A stretch of 64,000 bases of DNA from Rhizobium sullae. GTDB taxonomy: Bacteria > Pseudomonadota > Alphaproteobacteria > Rhizobiales > Rhizobiaceae. The translations under genes were made by a program, and so were the position numbers. The notes beneath the pieces are model-generated. The model was not told the DNA's origin. It searched no databases and worked only from the letters and a program-made list of their open reading frames with translations. Shown one piece after another: positions 1-10,857 of the stretch. The stretch lies in assembly GCF_025200715.1 (NCBI RefSeq), contig NZ_CP104144.1:1922001-1986000 (forward strand). The letters run 5' to 3'. Position 1 is the first letter of the stretch, and every line of letters begins with the position of its first letter.

Positions 1-722
1 CAGTCGCAGGCAGACAGAACCTCCACAATCGACTTGCCGTCAGCGGCCGGCGCATCGAGGACAATCGTCGCTAGACGGTCTCCCTGCTTCACCTTCTGCG
101 GCAGAGCGGCAAATTCGACCACCCCATCGCGTGGCTGATAGACCGTAACCGTCTCCGCAGCGATGCTCGCCGAAACAGCCTCGAAGGTGAACAGCCTCTT
201 ATAGACGATACTGGAGAGGAAGGAGAAAGCGGCCAAGCCGATGACAACGAATATCAAAAGCCCGAATATACGCCCTGCAAGACCGTTCCCGGTCGACGAC
301 GCCGTCACACCGACCACCGCAGCCTTAGCATCTTTTTTTTCTGCCATCTGATGTCCCAATACGTAAACTTTCGAACCGCTTTGAACGACCCGCCCGGCGA
401 GATAGAGGTCGGCGAAATGCGACAAAGGCGCTGTTGTCTCCGCAGGGTCGAGAATTTGTAGGCCGGCGCGCCGCTCGTCTGCATCCACCCAGACAATGCG
501 CGTATTAAGAGCCAGCTCGAGACAGGAGCCCTCGGTTTCTAAGAGCAGGGTCACGGCGAGGTAGTCGCCTGGAGCCTGCGTGAGCGCGACCGCGGCGAGC
601 CCGAGACCGGTCACCGACCAGTCGCATACCTCGATGCGCTTTCCGTCGATTAGCGCCGCCAGCGGCAATTTGAAGCGCGGGAACTCCCGTTCGCGACGCT
701 TGGGCACGGCAACCGCAGTCAT
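1..722 (-). CDS. alg44: Alg44-like PilZ/membrane-fusion protein, partial (C-terminus outside window)
   Basis: The frame is open from an ATG at 722 to the window edge, about 240 codons, so the gene is partial. The N-terminus carries both halves of a PilZ c-di-GMP site: REFPR (RxxxR) near residue 12 and DWSVTG (DxSxxG) near residue 38. One hydrophobic membrane segment follows near residue 150, then the start of an HlyD-like periplasmic domain. This domain order is that of Alg44, the c-di-GMP receptor and co-polymerase of mannuronan synthase Alg8. The start codon overlaps the alg8 stop (ATGA), so the two are co-translated. The order algD-alg8-alg44 equals the Pseudomonas and Azotobacter operon. 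The rest of the export machinery (algK, E, G, X) would lie to the left of position 1. Confidence 0.85.
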   Translation of the reverse strand, partial: MTAVAVPKRREREFPRFKLPLAALIDGKRIEVCDWSVTGLGLAAVALTQAPGDYLAVTLLLETEGSCLELALNTRIVWVDADERRAGLQILDPAETTAPLSHFADLYLAGRVVQSGSKVYVLGHQMAEKKDAKAAVVGVTASSTGNGLAGRIFGLLIFVVIGLAAFSFLSSIVYKRLFTFEAVSASIAAETVTVYQPRDGVVEFAALPQKVKQGDRLATIVLDAPAADGKSIVEVLSACD

Positions 723-2251
723 CAGAACACCCTATCTGTGATTTTCGGCAAGCGTTCCGGTGCTTCGTCCGTGAAATAGCTACCGAGATTTGCGAGGAAG
801 ACGAGAACCGAGACGAAAACCAGCACGGCAACGGAATTGACAAGCCGGGACGACCATAACTTGAAAGCCGCGTCGAACTGAGAATCGGTCCGCTTGAAGG
901 CAGTCTTCTGGCGCGTCCACTTCTGCCGGTCGAGCCGGAAGAAGATCAGCACCTTCACCGCCGAGCCGAAGATCTGATTGAAGTAGAGTAGCGGAATATA
1001 GACCAGATTGATCGATGGACGCACAGTCAGGAAGGTCAGCGCCAGGATGTATCTCGAGACAATGACCCAGAGGACATAGAAGGCGGCCGTCCATGGTGTG
1101 ATCATCGCGGTCCCGAGAAGGGCAAGCGTGATGCCCGACAGGCTGGTCCACATCGACATGCGCTGATCGAGAATAGACCACCAAGTAAACGCGCCGATTT
1201 TGATCGGCCCAAGATTAAGGGCGCGAGCATTTGTGCGCAGCATGTTTCCGAACCAGCGGGTCATTAGCACATAGGCGGAGCTGATGAAGCTCGGGCTTGG
1301 CGGCTGCTCGATAGTCTCCACCTGAACGTCCGGCACGTAATACATGTTGTAGCCGTTCTTCAGCAGCCAGAACCAGCTCGACTTGTCGTCGCCGGTGAGC
1401 ATGCGGATTCGGCCCAGGCGCCAATGGTCGATATAGTCGTTTTGAACATGATCAATGAAACCCGGATCACAAGCGAGCCGCGCGCGGAACATTGACATGC
1501 GCCCTGTCAGCGTCAGTACGCGCTCTGCAAGACCATGCGACGACATCAGAATCTGCCGCTGTGCAAAGCGCATCGAATACCACTGCTTGAAGATTTCCGC
1601 GCCCTCGACGGTGCACACCTCATCCGTGGTAAGCGCGCCCAGATTCGGATTGATCAGGAACATGCAAGCACAGCGCTCTACGAGATCGGGCGGCACAATG
1701 CTGTCGCCGTCGATCACCGAGACCGTGTCGTCGCCAGCCGGATTGAGCGCCGCGATGGCACGGAAACCGGCAGCGAGGGCATCGCGCTTGCCCGTCCCGG
1801 GAATGCGGACGATTTCCAGCCGGAACGGCGGGCTATCGCCATACATCACTTCGGCAAGGCGACGAATGAGGCGCTCGTCACCGATCTCGACAATCGAGCA
1901 AACGATCGTTGCGCCGGCAGGCGCATTGGCTGCCGCGATGAAAGCGCCGCGATAAACCTTGGTGGTGGTCGGGGCATCGATCCTGAAGCTCGTGATCAGA
2001 AAGTAGGCATGCCCCAACCCTTGCGCCTTTGCTGCCGCTTCGGCCATCCGACGCATCCCTGGAAAGCGGACCAGCCGGAACCAGAGGCTGCGCAGCAGAT
2101 GAAGCAGTCCCCAAGACCATCGCCACAGCCCGATGACGCCGACCACTAATGCGGCGTCGCGTGCCTTCTCGTCGAATGCCTGCTGCGGCAGCATCGCTGC
2201 ACACACAGCCAGCAGTAGGACGAAAACGATATGCTTGAGGATACCCAACAT
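722..2251 (-). CDS. alg8: Alg8-like mannuronan synthase (GT2)
   Basis: This is a 509-aa inner-membrane family 2 glycosyltransferase expected to polymerise mannuronate from GDP-mannuronic acid. N-terminal hydrophobic segments (residues 1-60) precede a cytosolic GT2 domain with VIDGDS (D-x-D, residues 179-184), TGDDK at 286-290 in the place of the TED motif, and RWFGNMLR at 332-339, which replaces QxxRW and is typical of Alg8. Several membrane helices follow at 360-490. The gene starts 7 bp after the algD stop and overlaps alg44 by 4 bp. The neighbours distinguish it from cellulose or hyaluronan synthases. The polymer may be an alginate-like polyuronate rather than true alginate. Confidence 0.87.
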   Translation of the reverse strand: MLGILKHIVFVLLLAVCAAMLPQQAFDEKARDAALVVGVIGLWRWSWGLLHLLRSLWFRLVRFPGMRRMAEAAAKAQGLGHAYFLITSFRIDAPTTTKVYRGAFIAAANAPAGATIVCSIVEIGDERLIRRLAEVMYGDSPPFRLEIVRIPGTGKRDALAAGFRAIAALNPAGDDTVSVIDGDSIVPPDLVERCACMFLINPNLGALTTDEVCTVEGAEIFKQWYSMRFAQRQILMSSHGLAERVLTLTGRMSMFRARLACDPGFIDHVQNDYIDHWRLGRIRMLTGDDKSSWFWLLKNGYNMYYVPDVQVETIEQPPSPSFISSAYVLMTRWFGNMLRTNARALNLGPIKIGAFTWWSILDQRMSMWTSLSGITLALLGTAMITPWTAAFYVLWVIVSRYILALTFLTVRPSINLVYIPLLYFNQIFGSAVKVLIFFRLDRQKWTRQKTAFKRTDSQFDAAFKLWSSRLVNSVAVLVFVSVLVFLANLGSYFTDEAPERLPKITDRVF

Positions 2252-2257
2252 GACCGT

Positions 2258-3574
2258 TTACCAGACGAGACCTTCGTAATGCACGCCGGACGGCATATCG
2301 ACGGGAATACGGACGAGGTCGATGACCTTGACGCCTTCCCGCGCTTTCTTCAGCGCATCCTTAGTGCCTTGGCCGTTGATGCCGACCACGATGGCCTCGC
2401 TCTCCGACACGACTTCGTCGGGCGACGAACGCATGAAGCTTGCCAGGTGCGAGATGTAGTTCCGGCCGCCATGATCGTTGACCGAGACGTTGGAGTCATA
2501 GATCGACAGCTCGTAACCCTTACCCATCAAGCGTTCGGCCAAAAGCACAAGCGGGCTCTCACGCAGGTCGTCCGTGTCCGACTTGAAGGTCAGGCCGAGA
2601 AGGCCGATTTTCTTGGCCCCGGAGCGGTTGACGAGGCGGAAGGCGCGCTCGAGCTGGTATTGGTTCGCCTCGACAGTGGCGTCGAGGACCGGCGTCGACA
2701 CGTTCTGCATCTTGCCGAAATGGCGTAGCGCCCGAAGATCCTTCGGAAGGCAGGAGCCGCCATAGGCGAAGCCGGGCTTCATATAGGCGCGGGAAATATT
2801 GAGTCGCGTGTCGGCGCAGACAACATCCATAACGACGTGGCTGTCGATGCCGACGGATTTGCAGAGATTGCCGATTTCGTTGGCGAAGGAAATCTTTACC
2901 GCATGCCAGCAGTTGTTGGTGTACTTGACGATTTCGGCGCTGCGGATCGGGATGACATGCGGCTTTACTTCGACCGAGGCGCAGAGGTCGTGTAGGGCCT
3001 GAATGGTTTTCTCATCGCCTTCGTATTGGCCAAAGACGATCGCACCTGGGCTGTAGTAGTCGGCGATTGCCGTACCTTCGCGCAGAAATTCCGGGTAGTA
3101 TGCCAGACCGAAGTCCACTCCGACCGTCTTTCCGGAGGCGCCTTCAAGGGCCGGGATGACCACGTCCTCGACCGTGCCTGGGAGGATCGTCGAGCGCATA
3201 ACGACCATGTGGAAATCGCTCTTGTTGCGCAATGCAACACCGATCTGCTCGCAGACCAGCTTAACATAGCTCGTGTCCAGCGAACCGTCTTCACGGCTCG
3301 GCGTACCCGGGCAGCAGAACGAGATGTCGGTCTCGTTGATCGCGGCGATATAGTCGCTGGTTGCAGTCAAAAGGCCGTTCTCGGCGCCCGTTTCGATCAG
3401 GTCAGGCAGACCCGGCTCGAAGATTGGAGAGCGACCTTCGGAGATGCACTTGACTTTGTATTGGTCCGGATCGACCGCGACTACTTTGAAGCCGTCTTTT
3501 GCAAGACAACCGGCTGATACAGCTCCAACATAGCCCGCGCCAAAAATACTTACGCGCCAATTTTTCTTGCCCAT
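2258..3574 (-). CDS. algD: GDP-mannose 6-dehydrogenase
   Basis: This 438-aa protein belongs to the UDP-glucose/GDP-mannose dehydrogenase family. It has an N-terminal Rossmann site (FGAGYVGAVSAG), the central family segment with PEFLRE and EIVKYTNNCWHA, and the catalytic cysteine in GGSCLPKD. Blocks such as FANEIGNL, RPGFA-like KPGFAYGGSCLPKD and TDDLRESPLV match Pseudomonas AlgD from memory better than UDP-glucose dehydrogenases. It supplies GDP-mannuronate to Alg8. I chose ATG at 3574 because a GGAAAGG ribosome site lies 8-10 bases upstream; the alternative GTG at 3583 sits directly against that site. It is first in the algD-alg8-alg44 operon. The 0.8-kb upstream gap should hold its promoter. 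Confidence 0.9.
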   Translation of the reverse strand: MGKKNWRVSIFGAGYVGAVSAGCLAKDGFKVVAVDPDQYKVKCISEGRSPIFEPGLPDLIETGAENGLLTATSDYIAAINETDISFCCPGTPSREDGSLDTSYVKLVCEQIGVALRNKSDFHMVVMRSTILPGTVEDVVIPALEGASGKTVGVDFGLAYYPEFLREGTAIADYYSPGAIVFGQYEGDEKTIQALHDLCASVEVKPHVIPIRSAEIVKYTNNCWHAVKISFANEIGNLCKSVGIDSHVVMDVVCADTRLNISRAYMKPGFAYGGSCLPKDLRALRHFGKMQNVSTPVLDATVEANQYQLERAFRLVNRSGAKKIGLLGLTFKSDTDDLRESPLVLLAERLMGKGYELSIYDSNVSVNDHGGRNYISHLASFMRSSPDEVVSESEAIVVGINGQGTKDALKKAREGVKVIDLVRIPVDMPSGVHYEGLVW

Positions 3575-4404
3575 AAGCTGCACCTTTCCCGCAATGTTTG
3601 TTCAAAAAAGAATAGAAATGCCGCTTTTCTTGCCGCCACATAAAATTCAAATAAATCTATATGTTGCGTCTGCGAAGAGCACCCCTCTCAATTTCGCAAT
3701 ACAGCATCTGTTTATGACGTCAACATAACGAATCTCAGTTATCAACATGCCAGGCCGGTAATATTTGCATCAAAATTGTGCAGACTCGTTTCGAGCTAAT
3801 ATTACGTGTAGTAATACATACGCGTGACATGCCGACTAAGATTTTGTTAACAATATCAATATATTAGAATATGATTAAAAGATGCGCACAGGGCGCTTAC
3901 TTTTTGTGCGCCGCAGCATTAACCAAAGCTTGATTTCGGTTGGTTTTTTTCAACTGAGGCAACTGCGCAACGCTCGGGCATCTGTGCCAACTGAAAAACG
4001 AATCAGCAGCTGACGCACGCTCTGCGCAAGATCTCGCAACGGGGCGCAATGCTAAGTAGATCTTCGCCGCAATGCCGCGTGCCTGCCTCAAGATAGTGGT
4101 CGTCGAACGCATGGTGCCAATCCGTAAGCACAGTCAGCTTGGACAGCCAACGCTTCGCAGCCGGATAGCCCAACATCGTCGCTCGTATTGACGATGAGCG
4201 CTCTCAAAGGATGACACATAGACCAACTAAATATGCAGAAGCGTCCCGTAATTAACTTTCACTTAAACCATTCCATAAATTGCCGTCATCAAAGTTAACT
4301 TCCAGTATACAAAATAAAAAATCGATTGTTTAAAGTTTTATACGTCAAAAACACGAAATATTGCTTTGTATTTCCTATTGTCTTCCCAAAGCCGGGAGAT
4401 AAAT
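3575..4404. promoter_or_regulatory. Divergent regulatory region between algD and algL
   Basis: This is 830 bp of AT-rich DNA with no convincing gene, between divergent algD and algL. It contains the inverted repeat TATTAC-gtgta-GTAATA (3800-3816), a plausible operator for a dimeric regulator, roughly 225 bp upstream of algD. Runs of T/A near 3840-3880 and 4230-4330 could hold promoters, but I cannot assign a specific -35/-10 pair. The 71-codon open frame at 3897-4112 on the minus strand has no ribosome site and is not called. Confidence 0.4.
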
Positions 4405-5586
4405 ATGAGAATAAAAGCATTCCAAATCGGGACTATTATTGCACTCAACATATTCTCCCCAAACATCTGCGGCGCTCAGGAAGTGGCAACTGTGCCCGAA
4501 ACGGTCACGATCCAATCGCCAAGCACCTCAAAGAGACTAACGGGTCTATTCTCAGATTTGCGTGGCCGTGTTTTCGGCACTTCTGACCAACAGGATGCCG
4601 CCACGTCAGTTGACAGCGCAACAGCGACAGCGGCTAGCACTGTCGACAAGGACTATACGATCCAAACGGGCAGTATTTCGTCCCTTTCCGCCGGCAACGG
4701 CGTCGGGACAGCCGGTGCGGAACCAGAGCAAGTTCCTCTTTGCGTCAGCATCCCTGCGCCACCCGCAACGCTGCAGACACAATCGAAATACAAGGCTGAC
4801 GACAGTTCAAAATCCTCGATCGACGACGACGCCTTGCAAGCGCGCGATAGGACCGTGCAGCCAATCCGCAACTCTATTCGCCTGCTGACCAACATTGCCT
4901 ATGCCGGATCGAACAGTTCGCTAGTGACCCAGGCGCGGGCAGAATGCGTGCTGCATAATGTTGATCGGTGGGCGTCTGCGAAGGCGTTGACCGACATGCG
5001 CACTGTTGACGCCTATCTTAGCCGCGACCGTTGGGTGGCCGAAATCGCACTTGCGGTTCGCTCGGCCAGCAAACGTGTGGAGCTCTCCAGTGAGCGCAAG
5101 GCGCTTTACTCGACATGGTTCAGCACACTTGCCCGCGATACCATGGACGCTTATTCGCTTCGCCTTGGCCCGAAGTCGAAGACAAATAATCACCGTTACT
5201 GGGCGGGTCTGTCGGTCGCTGCCGTGGGCTTTCTTCTCGATAGTGGTGATTTCAAGACATGGGGCAAAACGAGTTTCGAGATCGGCGCTTGCCAGGTAGA
5301 TGATCGCGGTTTCCTGCCGGCGGAGCTGGCCCGCGGCGAGAAAGCCCTTGACTACCATGTCTATGCGTTGCGCCCACTCGCTGCCATCATCAAGCTCGCC
5401 TCGGACAACGGCGAGCCGCTTCAGTCAAAGTGCCTCGATAGGTTCAAACGTCTCACCGCGATGACGCGCGAGGCCCTACTGGATCCCACGGAATTCGAGC
5501 GTGTCGCCGGTCAGCGCCAATCGATAATCTCCTCGGAAACCAGCTACTCTGCAGCGTTGAAGCTCGACGCACTTCCGCTCCTATGA
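4405..5586 (+). CDS. algL: AlgL-type periplasmic alginate lyase (PL5)
   Basis: This 393-aa protein is predicted to be a poly(beta-D-mannuronate) lyase. ATG 4405 is preferred because GGGAG lies 7 bases upstream and the first 24 residues form a signal peptide ending near ICGA-QEV. Residues 25-130 are a Ser/Thr/Ala-rich low-complexity segment not usual in AlgL. The lyase domain follows, with NNHRYW (conserved active-site Asn-His), QVDDRGFLPAEL, and RGEKALDYHVYALRPLA, which holds the conserved YH-YAL block. In Pseudomonas AlgL sits inside the alg operon and clears polymer from the periplasm; here it is divergent from algD. The family call rests on recalled motifs and is supported by algD-alg8-alg44 next door. 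Confidence 0.8.
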   Translation: MRIKAFQIGTIIALNIFSPNICGAQEVATVPETVTIQSPSTSKRLTGLFSDLRGRVFGTSDQQDAATSVDSATATAASTVDKDYTIQTGSISSLSAGNGVGTAGAEPEQVPLCVSIPAPPATLQTQSKYKADDSSKSSIDDDALQARDRTVQPIRNSIRLLTNIAYAGSNSSLVTQARAECVLHNVDRWASAKALTDMRTVDAYLSRDRWVAEIALAVRSASKRVELSSERKALYSTWFSTLARDTMDAYSLRLGPKSKTNNHRYWAGLSVAAVGFLLDSGDFKTWGKTSFEIGACQVDDRGFLPAELARGEKALDYHVYALRPLAAIIKLASDNGEPLQSKCLDRFKRLTAMTREALLDPTEFERVAGQRQSIISSETSYSAALKLDALPLL

Positions 5587-6204: not shown

Positions 6205-7968
6205 TCAGAAGATAAAGTCACTGCTTTGAAGCTGAACGACGCCATCGACGTGGATCGAAAAGTCCGCAGTCCCATCCCCATTGATATCGCCGTAGATATA
6301 GGTCTCGGACCCTGTATTGACGTAGCGCAACTCGCCGACTTTCTCTGAGAATGCTCCAGTCCCGATGAAATCGAAGGCTTGACCGCCATTGACGGCGGTG
6401 TTCGCATCGATCACGCTGAGATTGATTATATCGCCTTCAGCCTGAGAAAACTGGTAGATGTCGTCGCGACCGATGGAGGTTAACGTCGACGGATCGAGCC
6501 AAGTGAAGACGAAGGTGTCGGCGCCTGTCCCGCCGTAGAGATTATCAGCACCTTCGTCGGCATAAAGTCGGTCGTCGCCGGCCCCCCCGTAGAGCGTGTC
6601 GTCGCCGTCGCCGCCCACCAGCTTGTCCGATCCTGCGTCGCCGTAAAGCCTATCACTATCGCTATAGCCATAGAGCGTATCATTGCCAACTCCCCCGACC
6701 AACCTGTCAGCGCCGCCCTGGCCCACGAGCATGTCGTCACCGTCTTGGCCATAAAGCCGGTCGGCGCCTTCACCGCCATAGAGCCGATCGTTATCCCCGC
6801 CGCCACTGAGGATATCGTCGCCCTCACCTGCAACGATCGTGTCGGCACCGGCGTCACCGCTCAGGTCATCGATTGCTGCCCCACCGTAGACGATATCGTC
6901 TCCGTCGCCGCCGGTGATCGTATTCGCGCCGGCTTCGCCCTTGAGTGTGTCGTTACCGGCACCGCCATCTATTGTATCGTTACCGGCACCGCCGTAGACG
7001 ATATCATCGCCCGCCCCTGCGGAAACCACATCGGCGCCGTCCTGTCCCTGGAGCTTGTCAGCGCCATTGCCACCCACAATCCTGTCGTCGCCGGCGCCGG
7101 CGCGAACTACGTCATCGCCACCATAGCTGTAGATGACGTCAGCAAGCTCACCGCCTGTAAGCACATCATTGCCGATCGTACCGGTTGAATCTGCCGAATA
7201 GTCGCTCGTGCCGTCATCGGCTGTCACGGTGCTCACCAGGCCGCCCAACCCGTCTCCTGTTTCGTGAGAAAAATCAAACCCATAAAATGATACCTGGCCA
7301 GCGCCGGTACTGTTCGTCTCATTGTTTCCCAGATAGGCACCCGCCTTGAAGTAGAACTGTTCGCCGTCCCAGACAGAACTGACCGTTGTGACCGACTTGT
7401 AAGTGTACCCGTCGGCATAGACGATGACCGTCAGCGTATCGCCCTGGACGTCAATCTTGTAGGAGAACTGCTCCCCAAGGGAAACTTGCGGCGTGTCGCC
7501 GTCCGCATTGGTGAGCTCGAATTTCAAAGAATCGTTGCCGTCTCCGCCCTTGTCGCTCTTGAAATAGACCTCTCCATTGTCCCAATAGAGCCTGACCAGC
7601 TCCTCTTCCGAACCATGAATCTGGCCGACGACGATACGCCCATCCGCACCATCCATCGTTTGCGGCGCCTCATCGACCTTCAAGGTCGCGGTCATAGTGC
7701 CTCCTTCATCTACGCTCCAGGAGGCTAACGAGTGACCATCCATCTCGCGCAGCTCCGACCTCGCGCAGGTTGTACCCTTGGTCAAGGCGCCGTCAGTGAT
7801 CGCGCGAAACACCATCGCCCCATCGTCGGCTGTATAAAAATAGGACGAATGTTCGAAACCCGTGAGATCTAGAACCTCCAAAGCCGTACCAACGGTTCCA
7901 CCGTCCTCGTCGATCGGCAGGCAGAGTTTCCAGCTCACTAAATCGAAGTTATCGGAATTTGTCGCCAC
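6205..7968 (-). CDS. Secreted PL7 alginate lyase with RTX repeats
   Basis: This is a 587-aa extracellular enzyme. Residues 1-235 are a polysaccharide lyase family 7 domain with all three signature blocks: RSELRE (70-75), QIH (116-118) and YFKAGAY (206-212). In this family QIH enzymes tend to prefer G-containing blocks and QVH enzymes poly-M; that is family knowledge, not measured here. Residues about 255-490 are glycine-aspartate calcium nonapeptides (GGxGxDxLxG). There is no N-terminal signal peptide, so export by a type I system using the C-terminal signal is expected; no such system is in the window. The start is GTG 7968 with GAGGA 8 bases upstream. Proximity to the alg operon suggests it trims the cell's own polymer, though scavenging algal alginate is possible. 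Confidence 0.88.
   Translation of the reverse strand: MATNSDNFDLVSWKLCLPIDEDGGTVGTALEVLDLTGFEHSSYFYTADDGAMVFRAITDGALTKGTTCARSELREMDGHSLASWSVDEGGTMTATLKVDEAPQTMDGADGRIVVGQIHGSEEELVRLYWDNGEVYFKSDKGGDGNDSLKFELTNADGDTPQVSLGEQFSYKIDVQGDTLTVIVYADGYTYKSVTTVSSVWDGEQFYFKAGAYLGNNETNSTGAGQVSFYGFDFSHETGDGLGGLVSTVTADDGTSDYSADSTGTIGNDVLTGGELADVIYSYGGDDVVRAGAGDDRIVGGNGADKLQGQDGADVVSAGAGDDIVYGGAGNDTIDGGAGNDTLKGEAGANTITGGDGDDIVYGGAAIDDLSGDAGADTIVAGEGDDILSGGGDNDRLYGGEGADRLYGQDGDDMLVGQGGADRLVGGVGNDTLYGYSDSDRLYGDAGSDKLVGGDGDDTLYGGAGDDRLYADEGADNLYGGTGADTFVFTWLDPSTLTSIGRDDIYQFSQAEGDIINLSVIDANTAVNGGQAFDFIGTGAFSEKVGELRYVNTGSETYIYGDINGDGTADFSIHVDGVVQLQSSDFIF
6490..7200 (-). repeat. RTX calcium-binding nonapeptide repeat region
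   Basis: A run of roughly 9-codon units encoding variants of GGxGxDxLxG within the PL7 lyase. At DNA level the units share ggcgg-gacga-type blocks, so this is a place to expect slippage or recombination. It folds on calcium after export. Confidence 0.85.
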
Positions 7969-9207: not shown

Positions 9208-10857
9208 ATGAGAGATTCTAATCTGGCTGCGTATATGCAAAGTCAAGCTAGTGAATTTGTTTCCTATTATGGGAATAGCCTAAGACTCGTAAAATGCTCT
9301 GCAAAGGTTGCCCAGGCCTACAGAATCGTAGGCGCGGGAGATGCGACCCTTTGGCAGGTCTATCCAGAGCTGCTGGTTTCCGATCGCAAGCCGTTTGTCG
9401 AAGCCGTGCTTGCCGGCGGCCTCCCGCGCAATATTGCGATTGAACCTGGCGCGTCCGATGAGGACCGCAATCTTCTCCTTTTCAGCACAGAGCGGGGACT
9501 CGGCGTCATCGAGACGCGAAATGAGGTCGCGCGCTCGCAAGCGTCGATCGCAGATACAGATCGGGCTCTGCTTCTCTATCAGGCCAGACACGACGCTTTG
9601 ACGGGATTGCCCAACCGCCGCCAGTTCAGCAGCGATCTTGCGGCAGATCTTCCGTTGCGTGGCGGGCACAAGCTTGCACTGATGCAGATCGATCTCGACG
9701 ACTTCAAGCCGGTCAACGACACCCTTGGTCACGGCGCCGGCGATATCGTGCTCAAGATGACGGCGGAACGAATTCAGGCGGTGCTCCGCAATGGGGAGAC
9801 TGCCTACAGGCTCGCCGGCGATGAATTTGCCGTCATCCAATGCCATGACGATCAGCCTGCTGAAGCAGAGCGGCTCGCCGAATCGCTGGTCCATGCGTTC
9901 AAAGAGCCGTTCACCATCGACGGGATCGATGTCTTTGTAGGCGCAAGCGTCGGAATCGCCGTTGCGCCAAATGACGGAAACGACGGCGAGCAGTTGATGA
10001 AGGCGGCCGACATCGCCCTCTACGCCGCGAAGAACGATGGACGCGGCCGTGCGCGGACATTCAACCGCTCGATGCTCATCATGCTGGAGCAGCGCGAGAT
10101 GCTGAGGCGCAGCTTACGTGTCGCGCTCCAGGAAGGGCAGTTCTTCATTGAATACCAGCCGCTCGTCGAACTGCCGGAAGGGATCGTCGGCTTCGAAGCG
10201 TTGCTGCGGTGGCATCATCCCTATGCTGGAGTCGTTCCGCCGAACCTTTTCATTCCCATGGCCGAAGCTGACGGCCTGATGGGAGAAATCGGAGAGTGGG
10301 TGCTGGAAACCGCCTGCCGCCAGGCGACAACGTGGCCCTCGCACTTCATTGTTGCGGTCAATCTTTCCCCAGCCCAGTTCCTACTCGGTGGGTTCACCGA
10401 TCGCGTAGCGGGAATCCTTGACAAGGTCGGACTCGCGGCCGATCGGTTGGAACTCGAGATAACGGAAACCGTCTTGCTTGAGCGCACGACCAACAATCTT
10501 GACACGCTCAACACGCTCGAGGTCCTGGGTATCCGGATCGCGCTCGACGACTTCGGTACCCGATATTCGTCCCTGAGCTACCTGCAGAACTTTCCTTTCG
10601 ATACGATCAAGATCGACAAGCACTTCATCAACGATGTCGAGACGAACCGGAACACCCAGACGATCGTGCGCTTCATCATTGGGCTTGCTCATGGATTGGG
10701 GATGCGGGTCACTGCGGAAGGCGTCGAGACTGTCGGCCAGGCTGCCTGGCTAGGCAGAAGGAAATGCGACCGGCTACAGGGAAACCTCTTGGGCGCCCCG
10801 ATGGCTGCCGAAGCTATCGGGGATTTCTTGCATCATCCCTCGTTTGCTACTTTGTAA
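9208..10857 (+). CDS. GGDEF-EAL cyclic-di-GMP turnover protein
   Basis: This 549-aa cytosolic protein has an N-terminal PAS-like or unassigned sensor (1-110), a GGDEF domain (about 125-285) and an EAL domain (about 300-545). The cyclase motif is AGDEF (203-207), a substitution seen in active enzymes. The phosphodiesterase domain keeps EAL (330-332), NLSPAQF, ITET, DDFGTRYSSL (Arg replaces the usual Gly) and AEGVET, but the late GCD-x-x-QG block reads KCDRLQG. Both activities are possible; which dominates cannot be told. No membrane segment is seen. It stands alone, between the alginate locus and the lipid operon. Two window products bind or are expected to respond to c-di-GMP (Alg44, BgsA). 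Confidence 0.88.
   Translation: MRDSNLAAYMQSQASEFVSYYGNSLRLVKCSAKVAQAYRIVGAGDATLWQVYPELLVSDRKPFVEAVLAGGLPRNIAIEPGASDEDRNLLLFSTERGLGVIETRNEVARSQASIADTDRALLLYQARHDALTGLPNRRQFSSDLAADLPLRGGHKLALMQIDLDDFKPVNDTLGHGAGDIVLKMTAERIQAVLRNGETAYRLAGDEFAVIQCHDDQPAEAERLAESLVHAFKEPFTIDGIDVFVGASVGIAVAPNDGNDGEQLMKAADIALYAAKNDGRGRARTFNRSMLIMLEQREMLRRSLRVALQEGQFFIEYQPLVELPEGIVGFEALLRWHHPYAGVVPPNLFIPMAEADGLMGEIGEWVLETACRQATTWPSHFIVAVNLSPAQFLLGGFTDRVAGILDKVGLAADRLELEITETVLLERTTNNLDTLNTLEVLGIRIALDDFGTRYSSLSYLQNFPFDTIKIDKHFINDVETNRNTQTIVRFIIGLAHGLGMRVTAEGVETVGQAAWLGRRKCDRLQGNLLGAPMAAEAIGDFLHHPSFATL

Follow-up and report, generated by a model that had tools for sequence, protein, structure and literature searches.

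A predicted alginate operon without a detectable AlgE porin in Rhizobium sullae

Does a rhizobium carry the genes for an alginate-type polymer and, if so, by which route would this polymer leave the cell? The question is raised by a 64,000-nucleotide stretch of Rhizobium sullae DNA (the window; C2:1922001-1986000, where C2 is a ~2.76-Mb contig of the four-contig, 7.6-Mb genome), which carries algD, alg8 and alg44 at its left end. At this locus we have observed a gene set, a gene order, protein families and conserved motifs of alginate type, together with the lack of an AlgE match. The sequence makes it very probable that the window holds the promoter-proximal part of a 16-gene operon whose products build, epimerise, O-acetylate, trim and export an alginate-type polymer, a mannuronan containing some guluronate. 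From such a near-complete set, carried by legume symbionts on large replicons, one would predict a matrix polymer of nodule bacteria, probably controlled by cyclic di-GMP (c-di-GMP). Surface polysaccharides of rhizobia guide root infection and survival; the accessible part of a review on them (PMC5748678) does not name alginate among them. The absence of AlgE from a conserved and elaborated set raises a testable question, namely how alginate would exit without its known porin.

Gene content of the operon

An open reading frame (ORF) list together with a domain search placed the 5' part of alg44, alg8 and algD on the minus strand of window positions 1-5586 (Table 1). The original prediction had described these genes as being in Pseudomonas order and overlapping or near-touching. 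This was confirmed, with a 1-bp overlap between alg44 and alg8, a 6-bp gap between alg8 and algD, and family matches in Pfam and the PDB showing that these are not chance ORFs; the divergent polysaccharide lyase family 5 (PL5) lyase that it had reported was recovered as well. The operon consists of 16 same-strand genes over 26.4 kb, starts with algD and extends ~22.8 kb beyond the left edge of the window, to C2:1899171. The order of transcription is algD, alg8, alg44, manC, an alg44-like gene, algG (1248 aa), a Sel1 gene (1044 aa), algX, algF, a second Sel1 gene (955 aa), algL, a phosphomannomutase-type gene, a third Sel1 gene (472 aa, encoding a putative AlgK-like lipoprotein), an AGE-family gene, algI and algJ. 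All 16 reading frames are open, and the intergenic distances range from -113 to +134 bp.

At the genetic level, the 16-gene set and the conserved catalytic motifs lend good support to the claim of an alginate-type biosynthetic operon. The leftward search for the remaining alg genes that had been proposed returned algG, algX, algF, algL, algI, algJ and AlgK-like genes, but not algE; of the export genes on which the claim had been made to depend, the AlgK-like ones are present and the porin is absent. The canonical arrangement, for which the operon of Pseudomonas sp. BN102 (L065) was our reference, is algD-8-44-K-E-G-X-L-I-J-F-A in Pseudomonas and Azotobacter. The likeness to it held through alg44 and failed beyond. 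The R. sullae operon shares the algD-alg8-alg44 order, AlgG, AlgX, AlgL, AlgI, AlgJ, AlgF, a putative AlgK-like protein and the GDP-mannose supply genes. It differs in that no AlgE was found, AlgG has a solenoid and manC adjoins alg44; the additions are two giant Sel1 proteins, a second Alg44-like protein, an AGE-family protein and, alongside, extra PL5 and PL7-RTX lyases.

AlgD scored 437 bits against the solved GDP-mannose 6-dehydrogenase 1mfz, compared with 231 bits for the best UDP-glucose dehydrogenase, and has GGSCLPKD and NxWHA in common with the L065 AlgD. In a 73-row tree, it grouped with the AlgDs of alginate clusters and away from three paralogues in the R. sullae genome that are of UDP-glucose-dehydrogenase type (Shimodaira-Hasegawa-like approximate likelihood-ratio support, SH-aLRT, 97). 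On the scores and on this placement, which answers the phylogenetic check proposed for AlgD, the idea of a UDP-glucose dehydrogenase was rejected. The corresponding check for Alg8 placed it with Alphaproteobacteria. The two trees were quick ones without bootstrap, made from AlgD ORFs above 400 aa and Alg8 ORFs above 430 aa, with very long branches for L105_UGDparalog and L040_AlgD.

The identity to the L065 operon was 50% for AlgD, 47% for Alg8 and 27% for Alg44. Alg8 and its L065 counterpart have IDGDS, LTGDDKSSW and RWxGNxLR in common. Some relatives of Alg8 are already labelled Alg8 or mannuronan synthase in public databases, so that the gene, if not the system, is on record. The Pfam PilZ score of Alg44 was 23.3 bits for the part in the window and 22.4 bits, just below the 22.5 cut-off, for the full protein. 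Alg44 has RxxxR and DxSxxG and scored 402 bits with a purpose-built Alg44 hidden Markov model (HMM), for which relatives of this Alg44 had been used. It is expected to be a co-polymerase controlled by c-di-GMP. The GGDEF-EAL protein further along the window (Table 1) might be a local c-di-GMP input for Alg44.

The modifying enzymes were also recognised. AlgG scored 208 bits against 4nk6, with a matching fold and a conserved DPHD motif, and has a ~610-residue helical solenoid added to its beta-helix. The acetylation set was recovered in Pfam (AlgF, 47 bits; ALGX, 126 bits; MBOAT, 106 bits; a second ALGX, 206 bits), with AlgJ giving 147 bits against 4o8v and keeping DTHW and the serine motif, and AlgI being 52% identical to its L065 counterpart. 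AlgL, of family PL5, scored 127 bits in Pfam and 112 bits against the solved alginate lyase 7sa8, while the divergent PL5 protein scored 93.7 bits against 4ozv, another solved alginate lyase, and retains NNH as well as R...Y. The NH and R...Y stretches of the solved enzymes are present in AlgL and in the divergent protein alike.

Read mostly from family membership, the pathway would run as follows. The AGE-family enzyme, proposed to stand in for a phosphomannose isomerase, the phosphomannomutase-type protein and ManC would supply GDP-mannose, which AlgD would oxidise to GDP-mannuronate. Alg8 would polymerise it through the inner membrane upon c-di-GMP binding by Alg44. In the periplasm, the solenoid-fused AlgG would epimerise the chain, AlgI, AlgJ, AlgX and AlgF would acetylate it and AlgL would remove misrouted chains, with the two giant Sel1 solenoids and the AlgK-like protein as the scaffold. 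For the PL5 and PL7-RTX lyases encoded alongside, matrix release or remodelling is the probable role.

Several results weigh against this reading. ManC lies less than 1 bit above the NCBIfam cut-off, with a match confined to model positions 1-367 of 467; the scores of the phosphomannomutase-type and AGE-family proteins are far below the NCBIfam cut-offs, the mutase missing every one of them; and AlgG reaches 260 bits with the NCBIfam AlgG model, whose cut-off is 700. AlgK is one of many helical-repeat matches, and unrelated helical-repeat proteins score above it or as high. The title of a paper on R. sullae exopolysaccharides, found in a reference list, refers to fucose-rich material. Two further points of this kind, the porin and a glucuronan producer, are taken up below.

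The 472-aa Sel1 protein scored 74 bits with a purpose-built AlgK HMM and gave no NCBIfam AlgK match; its AAAC looks like a lipobox by eye, and the strict lipobox pattern was unmatched. The 955-aa protein matched NCBIfam AlgK with 59.5 bits, far below the cut-off of 700.

Related clusters in Alphaproteobacteria

The system is not confined to this strain; many Alphaproteobacteria have related clusters. We have compared the best 80 of at least 566 confirmed relatives with flanks of up to 10 kb per side, often shorter, counting ORFs of at least 140 aa with at most 20 unknown residues. Families were labelled with twice-run HMMs seeded on L065 and L079; ORF starts and lengths were set mechanically, and some of the slices are truncated, the one from R. 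mesoamericanum stopping short of alg8. A long AlgG (>900 aa) was found in 38 of the 80 loci and a short one (301-900 aa) in 28, the remaining 14 having no AlgG within reach. The short-AlgG alphaproteobacterial clusters (algD-8-44-manC-G-I-J-K?-X-F; Rhizobium, Loktanella, Yoonia and others) resemble the R. sullae operon in that those of Rhizobiaceae and Rhodobacterales have no AlgE by HMM, but their AlgG has ~500 aa instead of 1248. In the Alg8 tree the long-AlgG loci did not form a single clade, with five label changes, at least four of them forced by starred branches.

The two classes also differed in their lyases. A PL7 lyase lay nearby in 14 of 38 long-AlgG loci versus none of 28 short-AlgG loci; PL5 was present in 5/28 of the latter, a count that includes gammaproteobacterial loci. 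An AlgE-type extracellular mannuronan epimerase was nearby in two of the 38 long-AlgG loci. The PL7 and epimerase counts give the alginate reading context from outside the R. sullae genome. In R. wuzhouense, such an epimerase with RTX and cadherin-like domains directly follows the cluster (L096:17410-19000 continuing into L097:1-3516; 289 bits to AlgE6). AlgE-type extracellular mannuronan epimerases were also seen in Microvirga (L016 and L039), and Devosia psychrophila has within its cluster an RTX protein with a SASA carbohydrate esterase domain, possibly an extracellular deacetylase (L092:5340-8921).

PF16822 (AlgX/AlgJ) was absent from 8 of 21 genomes searched, all of them long-AlgG (G009, G010, G012, G016, G017, G022, G024 and G026); thus, their polymer is perhaps non-acetylated. 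In three further genomes (G008, G013 and G027), it was on the contig of a second alg8. Roseibium sediminicola (L110) and Labrenzia alba (L111) have a second Alg8-like synthase, 34% identical, elsewhere in the genome.

Within the genus Rhizobium, Alg8 (E <=1e-60) was found in 20 of 148 genomes, six of them at >=94% identity when the window genome is counted; in a sample of the family it was found in 15/199, six of these at only 33-37% identity. The nearest rows in the Alg8 tree were R. sullae, R. mongolense, Rhizobium sp. CF080, Peteryoungia aggregata and Labrenzia alba, followed by Chthonobacter. The clusters of R. gallicum, Rhizobium sp. CC1099 and R. etli 8C-3 (Alg8 94-97% identical) lie on replicons of 2.25-2.54 Mb, and all 13 plasmid records with Alg8 at 1e-60 were typed as non-mobilizable. 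By its gene content, this is a recognisable alphaproteobacterial variant of the alginate operon without a detectable AlgE.

Among the papers listed by a search of the open-access literature, none dealt with a rhizobial alginate operon. In the available part of the review cited above (PMC5748678), alginate appears solely as the product of a synthase, exemplified by Pseudomonas, and a word search did not find "alginate" in the R. sullae genome paper (PMC5526965). The alginate passages available from two Azospirillum papers concern Pseudomonas MucR, not an alphaproteobacterial operon.

The outer-membrane step and the nature of the polymer

No PF13372 match was found in the R. sullae genome, a negative that a barrel too divergent for both PF13372 and our own HMM would escape. 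As a control, PF13372 detected five of five genomes with a linked AlgE. Within the available flanks, the purpose-built AlgE HMM found no AlgE at any of the 38 long-AlgG loci. PF13372 matched in 3 of 28 long-AlgG-cluster genomes (G004, G012 and G026), each time on a contig other than that of alg8, and in one short-AlgG genome (G034); L078, a locus without a classed AlgG, has AlgE. On these genome data, the outer-membrane channel is not an AlgE detectable by PF13372, and without AlgE the polymer would have to exit by a route not yet recognised. We somewhat favour the view that Alphaproteobacteria have, in these loci, their own and hitherto undescribed kind of alginate secretion machine. It would lack the AlgE porin, have its epimerase fused to a long solenoid and use two AlgK-like solenoids of ~1000 residues to take the polymer across the periplasm to an outer-membrane exit outside the AlgE family.

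"Atypical" alginate operons without algKE have been described in deep-sea bacteria (PMC7112194, 2020). Insofar as the accessible text of that paper tells, they are alike in lacking the outer-membrane transport loci; however, they are presented there as losses, in deep-sea bacteria, whereas here a near-complete set with extra solenoids occurs in Alphaproteobacteria, including plant-associated ones.

Compatible with such a machine, and possible though doubtful, is that another barrel, PF10082 (BBP2_2), replaces AlgE as the exit porin. PF10082 barrels adjoin the clusters of UBA998 and Defluviimonas, and the family matched in 26 of 32 genomes searched, R. sullae included. However, no PF10082 barrel is linked to the R. 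sullae operon, its gene sitting on another contig (C1) among what the ORF list suggests are housekeeping genes. Moreover, the family is also found in the AlgE-bearing Pseudomonas sp. BN102 and Marinobacter (G032 and G036), and gave no match in three long-AlgG-cluster genomes (G009, G012 and G026).

Two places for a hidden barrel were considered and rejected. In the 955-aa Sel1 family, the structure predicted for P0121, the relative from R. mongolense, contains no strand of three or more residues (predicted local distance difference test score, pLDDT, 86; predicted template modelling score, pTM, 0.62). In AlgG, the predicted fold is a helical solenoid plus a beta-helix. As to the 1044-aa protein, its Sel1 matches are the evidence on this point.

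For want of an export porin, the operon could instead be silent or its polymer kept inside the cell, as the lack of a PF13372 protein and the title on fucose-rich material might indicate. This we consider improbable, since all 16 frames are open and distant genera retain the AlgE-less arrangement, also with open frames, which argues against a dead operon.

We give a slightly smaller chance still to another polyuronate, such as O-acetylated glucuronan, being the product of this alginate-type machinery. The AlgD is of the GDP-mannose dehydrogenase type, where the chemistry of glucuronan leads one to expect a UDP-glucose dehydrogenase, and manC and the phosphomannomutase-type gene are inside the operon. 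Known AlgG acts on mannuronan, and AlgE-type mannuronan epimerases adjoin related clusters. On the other side, the operon would permit the acetylation found in glucuronan, and the PDB matches of the PL7-RTX protein include the glucuronan lyase 7nde (39 bits). The glucuronan reported from rhizobia (S. meliloti M5N1CS and P. rosettiformans) is, like the proposed product, a beta-1,4-linked O-acetylated polyuronate, but it is built from glucuronate; as far as the available portion of PMC10180729 goes, its genes, including those of P. rosettiformans, were reported as unknown in 2023. The sole alg8 relative in the P. rosettiformans W3 genome is a short-AlgG cluster (L075), an argument that would require W3 to be the same as the producer strain DSM26376. 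This cluster could itself bear on the glucuronan genes. S. meliloti is the classic glucuronan source, yet no Sinorhizobium record matched Alg8 at 1e-60 among the plasmids, the only records searched, a negative limited by Sinorhizobium sp. BJ1, which has an 86% identical Alg8.

That a rhizobium recently acquired an alginate operon from Pseudomonas, to which the patchy occurrence in the genus (20/148 genomes) might point, is very improbable and was rejected, because the Alg8 and AlgD trees place both proteins with Alphaproteobacteria and not Pseudomonas, the gene content is unlike that of Pseudomonas, and the GC content is that of the host (59.3% for the operon versus 58.3% for window 9001-64000).

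Other features of the window

Table 1. Features at the operon end of the window
Feature	Position in window	Strand	Description
alg44	3-722	-	5' part, cut by the left window edge (full length at C2:1921676-1922722, 348 aa); PilZ plus periplasmic HlyD-like part
alg8	722-2251	-	GT2 mannuronan synthase, 509 aa; Pfam GT2 94 bits
algD	2258-3583	-	GDP-mannose 6-dehydrogenase, 441 aa; start may be ATG at 3574; first operon gene
Divergent intergenic region	3584-4365		43% GC; conserved blocks TTGACGTCATA and ATGCTGTATTGCA
Second PL5 alginate lyase	4366-5586	+	Divergent; likely start 4405; Pfam Alginate_lyase 100.8 bits
PL7 alginate lyase with C-terminal RTX repeats	6205-7968	-	Pfam Alginate_lyase2 167 bits, RTX 189 bits; matches PL7 lyases in the PDB
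GGDEF-EAL protein	9208-10857	+	Pfam

The ATG at 4405 of the divergent PL5 gene is preceded by GGGAGA, and this start is more likely than 4366. Upstream of algD, the blocks TTGACGTCATA and ATGCTGTATTGCA are strictly kept in all six aligned sequences, which represent four species or strain groups, some of the same species; they might be a promoter or regulator site.

The PL7-RTX lyase, which the original prediction had not mentioned, adjoins the operon and would probably be exported through a type I system. Past the 3' end of the operon lie genes for HlyD and a C39-peptidase ATP-binding cassette (ABC) exporter (C2:1892375-1895786; L005:2375-5786), a pair that might constitute the type I exporter of this lyase.

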